From Prevotella sp. (GTDB lineage: Bacteria > Bacteroidota > Bacteroidia > Bacteroidales > Bacteroidaceae): a DNA stretch of 64,000 bases. A program made the translations under genes and the position numbers. The DNA is taken from assembly GCA_017471465.1 (NCBI GenBank), contig JAFUTI010000008.1, forward strand, positions 19,290 through 83,289, given 5' to 3'. The notes beneath the pieces were generated by a model that saw only the letters and a program-made list of their open reading frames with translations, was not told the DNA's origin and made no database searches. Of the stretch, positions 42,907 to 51,952 are shown one piece after another (position 1 is the first letter of the stretch; the number at the start of each line of letters is the position of its first letter).

Positions 42907-42991
42907 ATATAAATATTTATAAGTAGAACATTTTTTACGTTAAAATTATCAAAACACATTCTCAAAACCCTCCTTTGTGCATTTTTTTTTG

Positions 42992-42999
42992 TATTTTTG
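42992..42999 (+). promoter_or_regulatory. -7 element for LruC lipoprotein 4
   Basis: TATTTTTG, 25 nt before the ATG at 43025. Confidence 0.6.
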
Positions 43000-43024
43000 G
43001 CGACCAAATTACAAGGTTAATCAG

Positions 43025-44305
43025 ATGAAGTGTTTGACGAAGATGAAAGGCAGATGGGTTCTCCTAGCGTGGGGACTGATGATGGTGTCGTGCAATAAGG
43101 ACATGTTCAATGAGGAAGATTACAAACAACTTGTCGAGACGGCCCAACCGGTAAGCGCAATTGACGCGTCCCACACCTGGGAGCTCACGACGACTCGTTA
43201 TCTCACTATCACACTAGGATCAGCGTATTCTGCGATGAACCGTCTGCAGATACTCAGCGACAATCCTGTTTCCGGGAATGGAGCCACGATACTTGGCGAC
43301 TATCCGTTGTCGGGCGACACCCGTGAGTATGTAGCCTTTACGGCTCCCAGCACACTGAAAACATTCTACGCAGCACTGGTCGACAGTGACGGTCGTTATA
43401 CCGTAAAGAAGTTTACGGACGGAGAGACATCGCTGGATTTCTCTAATCCTCTGGCTACCAGTGCCACAGTAGACGAGCGACTCATCAATCATCAGGCCTT
43501 CTCCTACTGTTTCGAGGACGAGATGCCCGAGCCTGGCGATTACGATTACAATGATGTCGTACTGCGCATCTCGCAGGAGCGCACAGCCGAGAGCCAGATA
43601 ACCCTCAACGTCACGCTGGCTGCCGTCGGTTCGCTGTCGCAGGTAGCCGCTGCCATCCGTCTCGTCGGTTTCACGGTCGACCAGATAGAAAGCGTCACCA
43701 CCGTTGATGACGAGTCGTTCGATACAGGTTACAAGAAGTCTTCACTGCCATTTATCGACAGTCATCAGTTTCTGGTCAGCGGTATCGGCAACTCTGCTGT
43801 TATCAATGTCTTCGAAGATGCCCACTGGGCAACAGGGGTGGTTGCATACGCTTCCGAAGGCTATCTCCCGCGTTATATGTATAACGTTACCAAAGGAACG
43901 TCGGAAGAGAGCGACATGATGAGCCCACGCACCATCTCATACGTGATAACCTTCAAACCGACAGTCCTGAATATCAACTACTTCACGCTCGCAACAATAG
44001 ACCCTTTCATCATCGTTGAGTATAACGGCGCTTTCATGGAGAACCACGCAGCCTTCAAATACAGGACGACTTCTGTGCTCCATGAGTATACGCAGCCAAC
44101 GAGTGCTGTCATCCTCCCCTGGGCACTCGTCGTTCCAACCGGTTCTTTCCGCTATCCTCTGAATGGAATGCATATCGGCTATGCCAAGGACGGCGCTCTC
44201 TTTGGCGCCTACATGACCTCAGGCCATTCCTTTGGCCAGTGGGCCTCTGACAGGACAACCTCCACAGACTGGTATGACTATCCGACAACGAACATGGTCT
44301 ACTGA
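43025..44305 (+). CDS. LruC-domain lipoprotein 4
   Basis: A 426-residue lipoprotein (start MKCLTKMKGRWVLLAWGLMM, lipobox VSC; an ATG 18 bp later is the alternative). The N-terminal motif is degenerate (SAIDASHTWELTTTRYLTIT) but in the same place. The LruC core FEDEMPEPGDYDYNDVVLRI is clear, then a longer beta-rich C-terminal part with HIGYAKDGALFGAYMTSGHS before the end. It is transcribed away from the other three family members, sharing their divergent promoter region. The next gene, tcdA, begins 43 bp downstream without an obvious promoter. Confidence 0.8.
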   Translation: MKCLTKMKGRWVLLAWGLMMVSCNKDMFNEEDYKQLVETAQPVSAIDASHTWELTTTRYLTITLGSAYSAMNRLQILSDNPVSGNGATILGDYPLSGDTREYVAFTAPSTLKTFYAALVDSDGRYTVKKFTDGETSLDFSNPLATSATVDERLINHQAFSYCFEDEMPEPGDYDYNDVVLRISQERTAESQITLNVTLAAVGSLSQVAAAIRLVGFTVDQIESVTTVDDESFDTGYKKSSLPFIDSHQFLVSGIGNSAVINVFEDAHWATGVVAYASEGYLPRYMYNVTKGTSEESDMMSPRTISYVITFKPTVLNINYFTLATIDPFIIVEYNGAFMENHAAFKYRTTSVLHEYTQPTSAVILPWALVVPTGSFRYPLNGMHIGYAKDGALFGAYMTSGHSFGQWASDRTTSTDWYDYPTTNMVY

Positions 44306-45181: not shown

Positions 45182-45212
45182 GTTTGTCCATTTCTTGGTT
45201 TTGTTTGTCCAT
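45182..45212 (+). promoter_or_regulatory. Putative operator: two direct repeats with 21-bp period
   Basis: GTTTGTCCAT occurs at 45182-45191 and again at 45203-45212, start-to-start 21 bp, two turns of B-DNA. AraC-family regulators typically bind such direct half-sites. The pair ends 36 bp before the -7 element, the place expected for an activator contacting polymerase. The downstream gene encodes an AraC-domain protein, so autoregulation of the pdx operon is inferred. Confidence 0.6.
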
Positions 45213-45248
45213 ATCAATACAAAATTCTTTCGTTTCCAAAGAAATGTG

Positions 45249-45256
45249 TTCCTTTG
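45249..45256 (+). promoter_or_regulatory. -7 element for the pdx operon
   Basis: TTCCTTTG, one mismatch from TAnnTTTG at the second base, ending 9 nt before the ATG at 45266. A weakened element suits an activator-dependent promoter. Confidence 0.55.
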
Positions 45257-45265
45257 CAAAAAATA

Positions 45266-46153
45266 ATGCGACAGACGAAACCCATATTAACTATCACTGG
45301 TTCTGACCCCACGGGCGGCTCAGGTATTCAGGCTGACATCAAGACCATCACGGCACTTGGCGGTTATGCCGTATCTGCCATTACGAGTGTCACCGTGCAG
45401 ACAACCCTCGGCATCCAGCAGTTCCACGACCTGCCGGCACAAGTGGTGGCGGGACAGATGGAAGCCGTGATGAATGATGTTCAGCCTGAGACGGTGAAGG
45501 TCGGTCTGATTCGCACGGTGGAGGCTGTCAGAGCTATTGCCGAGGCATTGACCAAGTATCGTCCTCGTCACATCGTCTACGCTCCCTCGTCGCAGTCAAG
45601 CCAGGGCGAGGCTCTGATTCCTGCAGATGTGGAACTGGCTATTAACCAACTGCTGCTACCCACATGTACAGTGGTGCTTTCAGATGCTCGCTTCAAGAGT
45701 CATGGTGACATCAACCTCTATGCGAGTGCCGTAGCTTATTATTTGAACGAGGGCGACAATGCCGAAGACGCTCAGCGCAAGGCACGTCAGTTTCTGAATG
45801 TCCAGAGGGCACATACGGAAAGACTCCTTTCTCGCGGCTTCGAACTCTTCGATGAGTTCCGTCAGATGGTAGAGGCCCATTTCGTGGAGAGTAGCGTGGT
45901 AAGTTTCTATGCCGACCGCCTGAATGTCAGTACGAGCTATCTGGCTCAGGTCACAAAACGCATCAGCGGCCAGGCTCCCAAGGCATTCATCGACGAGCGA
46001 ATCATCAGCGAAGCCCGACGACTGCTGACCAGCACATCGCTCACGGTGCAGGAAATATCTTATCAGTTGGGTTTCACAAGTCAGGCACATTTCACCAAGT
46101 ATTTCAAGAAGCTCACGGGACTCACACCGAGTGACTTCCGCAGTAATCCGTAA
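45266..46153 (+). CDS. ThiD/PdxK-like domain fused to AraC-type DNA-binding domain
   Basis: A 295-residue fusion. Residues 1-175 match the ThiD/pyridoxal-kinase fold: ILTITGSDPTGGSGIQADIK, GGYAVSAITSVTVQTTLGIQ, VKVGLI. Residues 198-292 are an AraC/XylS double helix-turn-helix (YADRLNVSTSYLAQVTKRIS, YQLGFTSQAHFTKYFKKLTG). The kinase part is about 80 residues short of normal, and the catalytic anion-hole segment, GTGC in ThiD and its pyridoxal-kinase relatives, reads GDIN at 147-150, so catalysis is unlikely while substrate-site residues remain. With pdxS and pdxT 20 bp downstream, this looks like a ligand-sensing regulator of vitamin B6 synthesis. Thiamine-pathway control is the alternative. 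Confidence 0.85.
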   Translation: MRQTKPILTITGSDPTGGSGIQADIKTITALGGYAVSAITSVTVQTTLGIQQFHDLPAQVVAGQMEAVMNDVQPETVKVGLIRTVEAVRAIAEALTKYRPRHIVYAPSSQSSQGEALIPADVELAINQLLLPTCTVVLSDARFKSHGDINLYASAVAYYLNEGDNAEDAQRKARQFLNVQRAHTERLLSRGFELFDEFRQMVEAHFVESSVVSFYADRLNVSTSYLAQVTKRISGQAPKAFIDERIISEARRLLTSTSLTVQEISYQLGFTSQAHFTKYFKKLTGLTPSDFRSNP

Positions 46154-46173
46154 ATAATTAAAGGTAAAAAGAA

Positions 46174-47121
46174 ATGGAACACAACAGACAAGAACTAAAT
46201 CGACGAACGCAGCAAGAGCAGACGGAGCTCGTTCCTTCTGCCTTGCAAGGAGGAGAAAGAGCGAAGCTCAACCGCAACTTAGCCCAGATGCTGAAGGGCG
46301 GAGTAATTATGGACGTGACAACCCCGGAGCAGGCTCGCATTGCCGAAGAAGCTGGTGCCTGTGCAGTAATGGCATTGGAACGTATTCCTGCCGATATCCG
46401 TGCGGCTGGCGGAGTTTCGCGTATGAGCGACCCCAAGATGATTCGTGGCATTCAAGAGGCTGTCAGCATCCCCGTGATGGCAAAGTGCCGCATCGGACAT
46501 ATCGCCGAGGCGCAGATATTACAGGCCATCGAGATTGACTATATCGACGAGAGCGAGGTGCTTTCTCCCGCCGACAACGTCTACCATATAGACAAGACGA
46601 AGTTCGACGTACCCTTCGTGTGTGGTGCCAAGAACTTAGGCGAAGCCCTACGTCGTATTGCAGAGGGTGCCACAATGATTCGCACAAAGGGTGAGCCCGG
46701 CACCGGCGATGTGGTGCAGGCAGTAAGTCATATACGATTGATGCAGAGTGAGATTCGCCGGCTGGTCAGCATGAGTGAGGACGAACTGTTCGAGGCCGCC
46801 AAGTTGCTGCAGGCACCTTACGAACTGGTGAAGTATGTACACGAAAACGGCAAATTGCCTGTAGTCAACTTTGCTGCTGGGGGTGTGGCTACGCCTGCCG
46901 ACGCCGCCCTGATGATGCAGTTGGGTGCCGAGGGCGTGTTTGTGGGTAGTGGCATTTTCAAAAGCGGCAATCCTGCCAAACGCGCAGCTGCCATCGTGAA
47001 GGCCGTCACCAATTATAATGACGCGAAGATGCTTGCAGAACTCTCCGAGGATTTGGGCGAAGCAATGGTGGGCATTAATGAACAGGAGATAGAACTCTTA
47101 ATGGCCGAAAGAGGCAAGTAA
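46174..47121 (+). CDS. pdxS: Pyridoxal 5'-phosphate synthase, PdxS subunit
   Basis: A 315-residue synthase that builds PLP from ribose 5-phosphate, glyceraldehyde 3-phosphate and ammonia. Catalytic Lys104 (in [10 protein letters not shown]) and Lys172 (in RTKGEPGTG) match Lys81 and Lys149 of B. subtilis PdxS with a constant offset of 23. [20 protein letters not shown] is the phosphate-binding region. The N-terminus is about 20 residues longer than usual ([20 protein letters not shown]); an internal start is possible but no better ribosome site is seen. Operon with the regulator upstream and pdxT 1 bp downstream. Confidence 0.96.
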
Positions 47122-47122
47122 A

Positions 47123-47668
47123 ATGAGAATCGCCGTTTTAGCATTACAGGGAGCATTTGCCGAACACGAGCAGATGCTCCATCGTTTAGGTGCAGAGACT
47201 TTTGAAGTGCGCCAACTAGCCGACTGGAAGGAGCCGAAAGACGGTCTGGTCATTCCAGGTGGCGAATCGACCACACAGGGGAAACTCCTTCACGACCTGG
47301 GTCTCTTTACCCCCATCCGTCAGGCCATCACGGACGGTCTTCCCATCTTCGGCACCTGTGCAGGACTCATTCTTCTCTCGCCCATGCACCTTGGTACGAT
47401 GGATATCAGTGCGCAGCGTAACGCCTACGGTCGTCAGTTGGGCAGTTTCCATACGGTTGCTCCAGTAAAGGGCATTGGCGATGATGTACCCATGACCTTC
47501 ATCCGAGCCCCTTATATCAACAGCATATTGTCTCCCGATGTAGAGGTTTTGGCTGAAGTTGGTGGCCATATTGTTGCAGCCCGTCAAGGCAGGCAACTCG
47601 TCACCGCCTTCCATCCTGAACTGGATGATGATGTCCGAATACACCAGTTTTTTCTTTCCATGAGATAG
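47123..47668 (+). CDS. pdxT: Pyridoxal 5'-phosphate synthase glutaminase, PdxT subunit
   Basis: A 181-residue class I glutaminase that supplies ammonia to PdxS. Motifs: [11 protein letters not shown], nucleophile Cys79 in [11 protein letters not shown], His164 and Glu166 in FHPELDDD. It starts 1 bp after pdxS. After its stop a 7-bp stem GAATACC/GGTATTC (47669-47690) without a T run might act as a weak terminator. Confidence 0.96.
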
Positions 47669-48877: not shown

Positions 48878-51800
48878 ATGATGGTAAAAAGATTATTTGT
48901 TGCAACAGTCGTTGCAATAGGGCCTTTGTTGGCCTCAGCGCAAAACCTGATTACGGGTCATCTCAGAGACGTTCGCACCGGCGATCCACTGATTGGTGCC
49001 TCCGTGATTGTAAAGAGCGAAAAGAGTCAGGGGGTTGTCACTGACGTAAACGGCAACTTCTCCCTTCAGACTAAAGTCGAGGCTCCGCTGACCCTTCGCG
49101 TAGAATATGTGGGCTATCGCCCGCTCGATGTCGATGTCTACGATTTCGAGGAACCTGTAGAGATCAGTTTGGTCGACAATGCCAGCCGTCTGGACGAAGT
49201 AGTCATTGTAGGCTATGGCGCCCAGAAGCGCCTGGAGCTGACCAGCAGCATCTCGTCAGTAGGCGATGAAATACTTCGTCAGCAGAATCACTCTGTTGAG
49301 AGTGCCTTGCAGGGTGCTGTGGCTGGTCTTAATGTGACGCAGACCTCTGGTCAGCCCGGTGGTGCCAGCATCATCCGCATCCGTGGCGGCAACTCTATCA
49401 CAGGTGGTAACGAGCCGCTCTATGTGATTGACGGCTTCATTGTGTATAATGATGTGTCATCGAACAAGACCGGTGCCCGCGGCAGTGATGCCGCACTCGA
49501 CCCGCTGGCATTCCTGAATCCCTCGGATATCGAGTCGATTGAGGTATTAAAAGACGTATCGGCCACCGCTATCTATGGTACCCGTGGTGCCAACGGTGTT
49601 ATCATCATCACCACCAAGAAAGGATCGCATGGCAAGAACAACATCAGCTATAATGCCACCTTCGGTTGGAGCACCATCAGCAAGAAGCTGAAGTTCATGG
49701 ATGCCTGGCAGTGGGCCGACATCTGGAACGAGATGTACGAGAACGGTGAGGTGGGCTATCGCCTGGACGAACCGACACAGAGCTACGACTGGCAGGATGC
49801 CGCCTTGCAGACGGGTTTTACACAGGAGCACCAGCTCTCGGCTGTGGGTGGTGACGATATCTCACGCTACAGCATCAGCGGCAGCTATAAGAATCAGGAG
49901 GGCATCATCATCAATACCGGTCTGCAGCGTTACGCCGGCCGTATCAACTACGAGCGCAACATATTCAAGACTCTGTTGGTGGGTGTCAACGCGAATGGTG
50001 CCTATAACAAGATGAAGGGGCAGTCTGACCGAAGCTCGATGTTTGCCGCCAACTCATGGTATGGTGCCATCTCGCACACGCCCTACACCCCTGTCTACAA
50101 CGAAGACGGCTCTTTCAACTATGAGCCGACGCCGACGAGTGTGGACATCTATAACGGTAAGGTGGGAAATCCTATCAGCGATCTATTGAACTATGATACA
50201 GCGACGGAGAACACCCGAGTCATTGGCACTGGCTTTGCAGAGTGGACCGTTATTCCGCAGTTGAAACTGAAAGCCAGCCTAGGTGCCGATCTCTCAAACA
50301 CCCGTCAGAGCTACTATGCACCGTCTTATACCTCCGACGGGCTGCCATACAACGGCTACGCCTCAGTGGGACAGACGAAGACACACGTCTGGCAGACAGA
50401 GTACACTGCTACCTATAGCAATGTCTTCAGGAAGGTACACTCGCTGACGGCACTCGTGGGTTATACAGCCCAGCGTACCGACCGCAGCAGGATAGCCACC
50501 ACGGCCTACGGCTTCAGCAACGATGCCACAGGGTATGACAATCTCGGTGCTGCCAGCACCACACTGCCCTCGTCGAGCGGGCACTACATCTCTACCCTAC
50601 AGTCATGGATTGGACGTGTGAACTACAGCTACGACTCTCGTTATAATGCCTCGCTGACCTTGCGCGCCGACGGTAGTAGTCGCTTTGCCAAAGATCACCG
50701 TTGGGGATGGTTCCCCTCGCTGGGCGCCTCTTGGAACCTCGACCGCGAGAAGTGGCTGCGTCTGGGCAAGAAGGTGGACTTCGTCCAGTTGCGTGCCTCG
50801 GTGGGTGTGGTAGGCAATCAGGAAATCGGTGACTATCAGTTTGCTGCCAATCTCACTCCACAAACTGTCATCATCGACGGACAGCGTGCCACGAGTTACA
50901 TTATCTCGAACAAGTCAAACCCCGACTTGAAGTGGGAGACTACCGCTTCATATAACGTCGGTCTGAGCACGGGTTTCTTTCACAACCGTTTGAATGTTAC
51001 TCTTGACGGTTACTACAAGAAGACCAGCGACCTGCTACTCAACGTGCCCGTAGAGCAGGTGACAGGTTTCAATACCGTACTGCGTAACGTGGGGGCCGTC
51101 ACCAACAAGGGCGTGGAACTGGAAGTGGGTGGCGTCCTCATCGAGAAGAAAGAGCTGCGTTGGAACGTAAACGCCAATATCGCCCACAACAAGAACGAAG
51201 TGACCAGTTTGGGCAATGCCGAATATTTCATCCCGTCTCATGGCTATACCAACCCCCTCATCGTCAAGGTCGGCGAGCCCCTTGGTTCCTTTTACGGCTA
51301 CAAGTTCAAAGGCATCATCCAGTCGGACGAGGATCTGAGTCAGCTGCCCTCACAGACCATCTCGACCGTCGAGCCTGGCAATCCCAAGTTTGAAGATGTG
51401 AATGGCGACGGTGTGGTGAACGAACAGGACCGCGTGGTACTAGGTAATATCCAACCGAAGTTCACATACGGTTTCAACACCAAGGTGGCCTATAAGAACG
51501 TGGATCTCTTCATCAGCGCCAGTGGCAGCTATGGCAACAAGCTCTTCAACGAGCTGGCCTGCCGTCTGGACCGAGGTAACGGCTACTATTACAACCCACT
51601 GGCAGAGGTGGCCGACCGTTGGACACCTTCCAACCCCAGCAACACTATCCAGAAAGCTAGCAACGCTACGTCTATCTATACCGACGACCGCTTTGTTGAG
51701 GATGCCAGCTATCTGAAGATTCGCAACATCCAGCTGGGTTATACCCTGCCGGTTCCGAAGATCACGAAGGATGCAAAACTACGCCTTTATGTGTCACTGC

Positions 51801-51952
51801 AGAACTTCTTCACCATTAGCCCCTACAGTGGCTACGATCCTGAAGCCAACCGCAGCGGCAGCGACGAGACCAGTGCCCTGTATCAGGGTATCGACAACGG
51901 AACCTATCCGTCTTCGAAGACAGTATTAGTAGGATTTAACGTAACACTTTAA
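48878..51952 (+). CDS. SusC-like TonB-dependent transporter
   Basis: A 1024-residue outer-membrane receptor of the SusC/RagA family. After the signal peptide, residues about 20-105 are a carboxypeptidase-like domain (GHLRDVRTGDPLIGASVIVK); then the plug with DEVVIVGYGAQKRLELTSSI, IRIRGGNSITGGNEPLYVID and VLKDVSATAIYGTRGANGVI; then the barrel ending VLVGFNVTL. It forms a pedal-bin complex with the SusD protein encoded 4 bp downstream. Two adjacent ATGs (48878 and 48881) are possible starts. No carbohydrate-active enzyme accompanies it, so the ligand is probably not a polysaccharide. Confidence 0.92.
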   Translation: MMVKRLFVATVVAIGPLLASAQNLITGHLRDVRTGDPLIGASVIVKSEKSQGVVTDVNGNFSLQTKVEAPLTLRVEYVGYRPLDVDVYDFEEPVEISLVDNASRLDEVVIVGYGAQKRLELTSSISSVGDEILRQQNHSVESALQGAVAGLNVTQTSGQPGGASIIRIRGGNSITGGNEPLYVIDGFIVYNDVSSNKTGARGSDAALDPLAFLNPSDIESIEVLKDVSATAIYGTRGANGVIIITTKKGSHGKNNISYNATFGWSTISKKLKFMDAWQWADIWNEMYENGEVGYRLDEPTQSYDWQDAALQTGFTQEHQLSAVGGDDISRYSISGSYKNQEGIIINTGLQRYAGRINYERNIFKTLLVGVNANGAYNKMKGQSDRSSMFAANSWYGAISHTPYTPVYNEDGSFNYEPTPTSVDIYNGKVGNPISDLLNYDTATENTRVIGTGFAEWTVIPQLKLKASLGADLSNTRQSYYAPSYTSDGLPYNGYASVGQTKTHVWQTEYTATYSNVFRKVHSLTALVGYTAQRTDRSRIATTAYGFSNDATGYDNLGAASTTLPSSSGHYISTLQSWIGRVNYSYDSRYNASLTLRADGSSRFAKDHRWGWFPSLGASWNLDREKWLRLGKKVDFVQLRASVGVVGNQEIGDYQFAANLTPQTVIIDGQRATSYIISNKSNPDLKWETTASYNVGLSTGFFHNRLNVTLDGYYKKTSDLLLNVPVEQVTGFNTVLRNVGAVTNKGVELEVGGVLIEKKELRWNVNANIAHNKNEVTSLGNAEYFIPSHGYTNPLIVKVGEPLGSFYGYKFKGIIQSDEDLSQLPSQTISTVEPGNPKFEDVNGDGVVNEQDRVVLGNIQPKFTYGFNTKVAYKNVDLFISASGSYGNKLFNELACRLDRGNGYYYNPLAEVADRWTPSNPSNTIQKASNATSIYTDDRFVEDASYLKIRNIQLGYTLPVPKITKDAKLRLYVSLQNFFTISPYSGYDPEANRSGSDETSALYQGIDNGTYPSSKTVLVGFNVTL

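Follow-up and report, generated by a model that had tools for sequence, protein, structure and literature searches.

Here, we describe a putative vitamin B6 regulator encoded in a 64,000-nt stretch of the Prevotella sp. contig JAFUTI010000008.1 (hereafter the window, the whole of the DNA analyzed, whose numbering is used throughout; the regulator gene, its predicted operator and promoter, pdxS, and pdxT all lie on the + strand). In this protein a domain derived from ThiD, the hydroxymethylpyrimidine phosphate (HMP-P) kinase of the thiamin pathway, is fused to an AraC DNA-binding domain, and its gene directly precedes those of the two subunits of pyridoxal 5'-phosphate (PLP) synthase, pdxS and pdxT. 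We estimate a probability of about 0.64 that this protein serves as a pdxST-specific transcription factor, probably an activator, in which the pocket of a dead kinase senses a B6 vitamer. Comparison of sequences among relatives supports the family itself, the loss of its catalytic residues, its genomic linkage with pdxST, and the association of an operator with pdxS transcription.

Catalytic residues and erosion of the ThiD-like domain

The regulator gene (45266..46153) runs from an ATG at 45266 to a stop codon ending at 46153 and encodes 295 amino acids, in which Pfam and NCBIfam models identify an eroded ThiD (HMP-P kinase) domain followed by an AraC DNA-binding domain. The putative sensor region (residues ~1-185; 45266..45820) corresponds to the substrate-binding half of the ThiD fold with the nucleotide half mostly deleted, as indicated by Foldseek, by a table of aligned residues, and by Pfam, where residues 14-138 match positions 1-124 of the 246-position Phos_pyr_kin profile at 131 bits. 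Residues 215-293 (45908..46144) form an AraC-type double helix-turn-helix over the curated Pfam cut-off (HTH_18, 84.5 bits versus 33.6). The original prediction, made from this sequence alone, of a ThiD-like domain fused to an AraC regulator ahead of pdxST is therefore borne out. That prediction likened the domain to both ThiD and pyridoxal kinase; in sequence the protein is closer to ThiD than to pyridoxal kinase, scoring 122.5 bits on TIGR00097 (HMP-P kinase; equivalog cut-off 204.95) versus 64 bits on PRK12412 (pyridoxal kinase), below the cut-off in both cases. An AlphaFold2 model of the window protein (mean predicted local distance difference test [pLDDT] score 94.8) found the ThiD-family structures 7r8y and 4jjp as its top Foldseek matches, with pyridoxal-bound relatives of the same fold (4ywr and 4c5l, the ligand being taken from the structure titles) lower in the list, and the model of a full-length relative from Hallella bergensis (L055; pLDDT 89.1) matched ThiD structures over ~250 columns.

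Residue alignment places H146-G147-D148-I149-N150 (45701..45715) where ThiD has HGTGC, so that the catalytic Cys is lost and the His-Gly kept. The loss of the kinase loop, first read from the window alone as GDIN at residues 147-150, extends through the whole family: the catalytic Cys occurs in 0/99 fusion rows versus 28/28 ThiD rows (three of the 29 loci of the phylum scan, L127, L135, and L144, were passed over by the motif filter and gave no ThiD row), and the HG of the former loop is retained in 99/99 fusion rows. In the 84 fusions left after dereplication, the GTGC Thr and the KGG Lys are each found in none (29 of the latter through a gap) and the TPN Asn in one, and His-Gly is kept by all. 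Residues of the substrate pocket with a role in binding hydroxymethylpyrimidine (HMP) are retained, namely the QAD Asp (84/84), the KxGM Lys (83/84), and the VQN Gln (76/84).

Erosion of the nucleotide half is graded. The TPN motif and the HG loop are separated by 8 residues in the window protein versus 71 in ThiD, leaving ~63 residues missing from this interval rather than the roughly 80 originally estimated. The 71-residue block is mostly kept in 56 of the 84 dereplicated fusions and not in the other 28, and the catalytic residues are gone from long and short forms alike; fusion lengths range from 296 to 391 amino acids across 80 loci, with the exception of the broken L091. At least five changes are needed on the tree to account for the erosion, although many forks are weakly supported and we claim no number of losses. 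The family shows a stepwise path from enzyme to putative sensor, through full-length dead kinase, partly eroded forms, and half-fold. As a separate observation, a 258-amino-acid fusion (L024, 574-1347, in genome G020) is without a further ~39-residue ThiD stretch found in its near relative L011 and still lies upstream of pdxS. In Segatella copri strain Indica (L091, 5989-6306 and on) the open reading frame (ORF) covers just 106 amino acids although the match spans ~1285 bp, which suggests a disrupted gene; this genome has pdxS at another location.

We consider it very improbable that the fusion combines DNA binding with a surviving enzyme activity, whether as an HMP-P or a pyridoxal kinase. 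Structure titles do include pyridoxal kinases among enzymes of the ThiD fold, and the long-form fusion of one genome (G021:C191; L021, L040, and L043) scores 208.6 bits on TIGR00097, making it the only fusion seen in 37 genomes to pass that cut-off and opening it to an automatic HMP-P kinase label. Set against this are the absence of the catalytic Cys, the GTGC Thr, and the KGG Lys throughout the family, on which an active kinase was rejected, and the ~63 residues missing from the nucleotide half of the window form.

Family distribution and linkage to pdxST

In the window, pdxS (46174..47121; NF003215, 507 bits, cut-off 395) follows the regulator gene by 20 bp and pdxT (47123..47668; TIGR03800, 208 bits, cut-off 105.6) follows pdxS by 1 bp, confirming the predicted arrangement with both genes over their NCBIfam cut-offs; these encode the lyase and glutaminase subunits of PLP synthase, respectively, and are the presumed targets. 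In a first sample of 60 genomes, comprising the window genome (G000, 63% complete) and 59 relatives, a search returned 20 two-domain fusions and a 21st genome (G015) that matched through an ordinary ThiD, but passed over two diverged fusions (in G001 and G012) and a long one in G053. Counting the two diverged fusions, which lie next to pdxST, all 22 genomes with pdxS carry the fusion. No fusion was detected in the 38 genomes without pdxS, a negative of limited search sensitivity: it is backed in 15 by a second search, which gave ThiD-domain matches in G004 and G015 only, both with true ThiD scores, and in the other 23 it rests on searches able to miss long or diverged fusions. The fusion lies upstream of pdxS on the same strand in 19 of the 22 (18 directly, and G005 with ~0.95 kb between); the remaining three comprise one divergent pair, one convergent pair, and one fusion (G017) that shares a contig with pdxS at a distance of ~145 kb.

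A scan in which each species was represented by a single genome, and from which the best 80 loci were kept, extends this family to at least 80 loci, and these best 80 all belong to the class Bacteroidia, with none outside it. The linkage proposed from the window recurs across these genomes: pdxS lies within the retrieved flanks of 60 of the 80 loci (56 downstream on the same strand, three divergent, one upstream) and elsewhere in the genome for 16 of the other 20, giving 76 of 80 genomes overall. Among ATG-started ORFs of at least 90 amino acids, only pdxS (54) and pdxT (48) recur as neighbors at six or more of the 80 loci. Across 296 genomes of the phylum, with up to seven candidates scored in each, the window genome alone gave a two-domain match and the others matched the ThiD part only. 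At the level of the order, pdxS occurs in 17 of 344 genomes, six of which have an adjacent fusion; the fusion search, run with the alignment A3 described below and five candidates scored per genome, overlooked the fusions of the window genome and of G631, so its negatives were not used alone, and the remaining 11 pdxS genomes were re-searched using a protein query that recovered both, with no two-domain match. Their PdxS proteins share 66-73% identity with that of the window in eight, more distant, genomes and 82-89% in three close ones.

Alignment A3 holds the window protein and 66 of the 80 loci, the 14 omitted being near-copies, the broken L091, and a few odd rows. All 67 members have both domains, with HTH_18 and HTH_AraC each matched at an E value of 0.001 (Pfam), and all 67 are hit by the HMP-P kinase model. 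They match 22 NCBIfam families, not one of which names a ThiD-AraC architecture. On a tree of the shared core, one branch splits the 84 fusions from 27 Bacteroidota ThiD proteins with a Shimodaira-Hasegawa-like approximate likelihood ratio (SH-aLRT) of 99, and a single origin of the fusion would therefore fit. Among the fusions retrieved from named records, those nearest to the window protein on this tree, L119 and L115, both come from metagenome-assembled genomes of Prevotella.

Aside from these results, the PdxS protein of the window carries ~25 extra N-terminal residues (46174-46260), seemingly a doubling of the QELNR/KLNRNL start of its relatives. The flanking genes, for a DUF4842 protein upstream (42977-44305) and a TonB-dependent receptor downstream (48878-51952), show no link to the regulator.

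Operator and promoter architecture

Upstream of the regulator gene, two exact copies of GTTTGTCCAT (45182..45191 and 45203..45212) stand 21 bp apart, with no further exact copy in the window, and are predicted to be the two halves of an operator. The promoter-proximal site (45198..45221), matching GTTTTnTTTGTCAAAATGnGAACA, was identified by motif score and by a half-site spacing of 35 bp to the CTTTG of a candidate -7 element, TTCCTTTG (45249..45256), itself assigned from its sequence and its distance to the operator. The -7 consensus of Bacteroidetes is TAnnTTTG. Since TTCCTTTG ends ~10 bp before the ATG, the leader would be very short. With the window held out of training, the site scored 15.5 bits on a 24-bp motif (99% shuffle threshold, 7.8) and just 9.3 bits on a 20-bp motif (threshold 8.8), both thresholds being taken from shuffles of other loci. 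No sigma-70-like promoter was seen in a scan of the region, which says little for Bacteroidetes.

Expectation-maximization on 85 sequences upstream of regulators yielded the motif gTtTT.tTTGTCAAaAtg.GAAca (log-likelihood 384 versus 114-129 in four shuffles), and a second motif, GGAACAATATTTTACnATATnGGAACA, was obtained ahead of pdxS at gapped and divergent loci (418 versus 118-129 in four shuffles). An earlier run on this second set caught the coding sequence of the regulator and was repeated on noncoding DNA only, with L073, L078, L103, and L112 manually excluded; removal of near-copies then reduced the other 29 sequences to 25. Aligned at GAAC, the two motifs are alike (mean column correlation 0.52, where 99% of column shuffles fall below 0.46 and the largest reaches 0.59). 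Direct-repeat identity peaks at an offset of 21 in both sets (0.43 and 0.49, from 33 and 21 sites), and no other offset between 12 and 30 exceeds 0.34 and 0.39, respectively; as the first-set motif spans the proximal copy only, the 21-bp period of that set does not depend on the motif search. Spacing to the -7 element was measured between the G of GAAC and the pyrimidine of YTTTG. In the regulator set, 31 of 36 sites have a spacing of 35 (27 sites) or 36 (four sites) bp, and in the pdxS set 25 of 27 have one of 36 (23 sites) or 37 (two sites) bp. The repeat pair first noticed in the window, which shares this period, can thus be read as one case of a conserved operator, and a chance repeat was rejected on the conserved motif, period, and spacing to the -7 element.

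The operator is conserved, but it tracks the pdxS transcription unit and is not always ahead of the regulator. Sites over threshold were found at 54 of the 60 linked loci (a total that is not independent, the motifs having been trained on the same loci): ahead of the regulator only in 28, of pdxS only in 23, of both in three, and of neither in six. Where the regulator and pdxS are separated by up to ~80 bp, the site, when found, precedes the regulator; at wider gaps it mostly precedes pdxS, the exceptions being L078, L082, L084, L089, L103, and L112 (gaps 91-202 bp), where it precedes the regulator. Outside the training data, we scored 16 genomes in which pdxS was not seen beside the retrieved fusion, and found pdxS sites over the 99% shuffle threshold in 12 and the 35-36-bp spacing in 15. 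In seven of the 16, no more than 1.6 kb of contig remains downstream of the fusion, so that the two genes may in fact be adjacent; the other nine have more than 5 kb of flank free of pdxS. The same arrangement was seen by eye at the pdxS promoter of G017, and that of G012 carries a site of 24.3 bits. The operator is found in 0/11 pdxS genes from genomes without a detected fusion (best scores 8.4 and 2.1 bits; thresholds 11.7 and 4.1).

This distribution bears on whether common descent alone accounts for the linkage while the regulator targets some other gene, for which the six Prevotella loci away from pdxS (P. pallens, P. aurantiaca, P. dentasini, P. micans, P. corporis, and P. disiens) and a second, unlinked fusion in G053 might be cited. 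We regard such a target as highly improbable: eight of the nine genomes with a clearly unlinked retrieved fusion keep a pdxS operator over threshold at the usual spacing, whereas in G683, the remaining one, pdxS is immediately preceded by another fusion. Nor does a second target stand out. A strict operator pattern gave 30 matches in 36 genomes, seven at fusion operators and 23 elsewhere versus 18 for a reversed control; with no clear excess outside the known operators, a wider regulon was rejected, although the pattern overlooked many sites, including the window's own, and a small regulon would be compatible with these counts.

Several loci show features of their own. The second fusion of G053 (L039, 5273-6187), whose genome also has one beside pdxS, neighbors an AAA_14/DUF4143 protein. 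In L044, L045, and L056, an inverted repeat (GGAACGG...CCGTTCC) with a T run overlaps the operator in the gap between fusion and pdxS, and is possibly a terminator of the regulator built into the pdxS promoter. At L019, a strict operator match (G016:C1:2042650-2042666) lies ~500 bp upstream of the fusion, past short GGCCACGGCCGAAA-like repeats, an arrangement that would fit displacement of the promoter by an insertion.

Ligand, proposed mechanism, and known systems

The genomes carrying the fusion point to the vitamin concerned. PdxJ was found in none of the 22 fusion genomes and in five of 15 other genomes tested, so that in the former, all of which have pdxST, the regulator looks like the control of the sole detected route of de novo PLP synthesis. 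Of 37 genomes, 10 have a true ThiD (over cut-off and separate from the fusions), and exactly these 10 have ThiC; the fusion tracks B6 synthesis through pdxST, and true ThiD tracks thiC. Because the fusion follows B6 rather than thiamin synthesis, this pattern points to a B6 vitamer as the likely ligand, although the domain is derived from the thiamin pathway. Of the 22 fusion genomes, 14 (including six with a completeness of 99%) showed neither true ThiD nor ThiC, and matches to the HMP-P kinase model could lead annotation to credit such genomes with a thiamin kinase. A pyrimidine ligand, allowed for in the original prediction, is accordingly disfavored on these counts where the thiamin pyrimidine is meant. 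Sensing of HMP or HMP-P, which would couple B6 synthesis to thiamin supply, would suit a domain whose nearest enzyme is ThiD and which keeps the VQN Gln and QAD Asp; we judge it improbable on the distribution of ThiD, ThiC, and pdxST just described, even if salvaged HMP might still play a part.

We therefore propose the following mechanism for a B6-responsive regulator. The AraC domain, probably as a dimer joined through the ThiD-like domain, would bind the tandem direct repeat of 21-bp period, with a half-site of approximately TTTGTCAAAATnnGAACA and a proximal copy ending beside the -33 region of the pdxS-unit promoter, and the apo-protein at this position would most likely activate pdxST. 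The N-terminal domain is taken to be a ThiD with its substrate pocket kept, its GTGC loop lost, and, in the branch of the window, its nucleotide half mostly lost; a B6 vitamer (pyridoxal, pyridoxine, or PLP) entering the old kinase pocket would turn activation off when B6 is plentiful. DNA binding, dimerization, activation over repression, and the ligand are the steps that we infer. Since the nucleotide and phosphate side is largely gone in the window branch, an unphosphorylated vitamer is our more specific guess for its ligand there.

The same regulator and operator might instead repress pdxST when a B6 vitamer is bound, and we give this alternative a minor but real share of the probability. 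End-product repression would serve the same physiology, and the operator is close to the promoter; the site, however, lies upstream of the -33 region and keeps a near-constant distance in co-transcribed, gapped, and unlinked arrangements, as expected of an activator that touches polymerase.

Several observations weigh against an activator that senses B6. The position of the operator suits activation, yet it fits repression too, and the retained pocket residues do not discriminate HMP from pyridoxal. The proximal half-site of the window reads ATAC, not GAAC. Applied unchanged to the second set, the first motif scored in 6/38 cases ahead of pdxS versus 8/38 ahead of the regulator, and because of this failed carry-over the kinship of the two motifs rests on column comparison, period, and spacing. 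No pdxS was found in four of the 80 fusion genomes. The six linked loci without a site over threshold are L046, L073, L074, L083, L096, and L098, of which L073 has one of 33.9 bits just outside the 250-bp limit used; sites at L159, L164, and L165 are weak at best and without the usual spacing, so that fusions without a convincing site comprise these three together with L046, L074, L083, L096, and L098. Three Segatella copri sites fall below threshold, though their spacing fits.

A fuller evolutionary account, which we put forward tentatively and at odds somewhat worse than even, is that a kinase of the thiamin pathway was recruited once in Bacteroidia, inactivated, and fused to an AraC domain as a dedicated activator of pdxST; that part of Prevotella then lost the nucleotide half and senses unphosphorylated pyridoxal or pyridoxine, with the invariant His-Gly in the switch; and that the result would be a second, independently evolved class of B6 sensor. 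Such a change from enzyme to sensor would cross pathways, from B1 to B6.

Within the full-text literature covered, which includes passages of PMC5320631, PMC6593275, and PMC9997740 but lacks most subscription journals and all preprints, we found nothing that describes a ThiD-AraC regulator or control of pdxST by an AraC protein. Control of B6 synthesis by an enzyme-derived vitamin sensor on an AraC regulator, as proposed here from sequence, thus appears to be without a published description, and its apparent novelty follows from this and from the lack of a matched NCBIfam family naming the architecture. A close functional parallel is PdxR, a regulator of the MocR subfamily within the GntR family, which also controls pdxST and whose sensor likewise goes back to an enzyme fold associated with B6 chemistry; for several Gram-positives, one report (PMC5320631) has apo-PdxR activating pdxST and PLP acting as anti-activator. 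The apo-activation and vitamer shut-off proposed here would parallel this logic, but the protein parts are unrelated: PdxR joins a GntR domain to an aminotransferase fold, both of which are missing from the Pfam results for the window protein and the A3 members, whereas the window protein joins an AraC domain to a ThiD fold. With ThiD itself (COG0351, TIGR00097) the fusion shares fold, substrate-side residues, and ancestry, and differs in lacking the GTGC catalytic residues and KGG Lys, in its eroded short forms, in its added AraC domain, and in following pdxST rather than thiC. The ThiD2-type pyridoxal kinases of Bacillus subtilis (2i5b) and Staphylococcus aureus (4c5l, with pyridoxal according to its title) have the same fold, but they are kinases without a DNA-binding domain and are more distant (64 versus 122 bits). 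AraC/XylS regulators share the C-terminal double helix-turn-helix and a tandem direct-repeat operator beside the promoter, a trait recognizable here from the DNA alone; their usual sensor domains have other folds. Reuse of an enzyme fold as the sensor of a DNA-binding protein also characterizes, to judge from article titles, archaeal regulators of thiamin and riboflavin. These are ThiR and RbkR, and the repressors of the ROK family offer a further comparison; the folds of all of them are unrelated to that of the Bacteroidia fusion, in which a fold of the B1 pathway would serve the B6 pathway.

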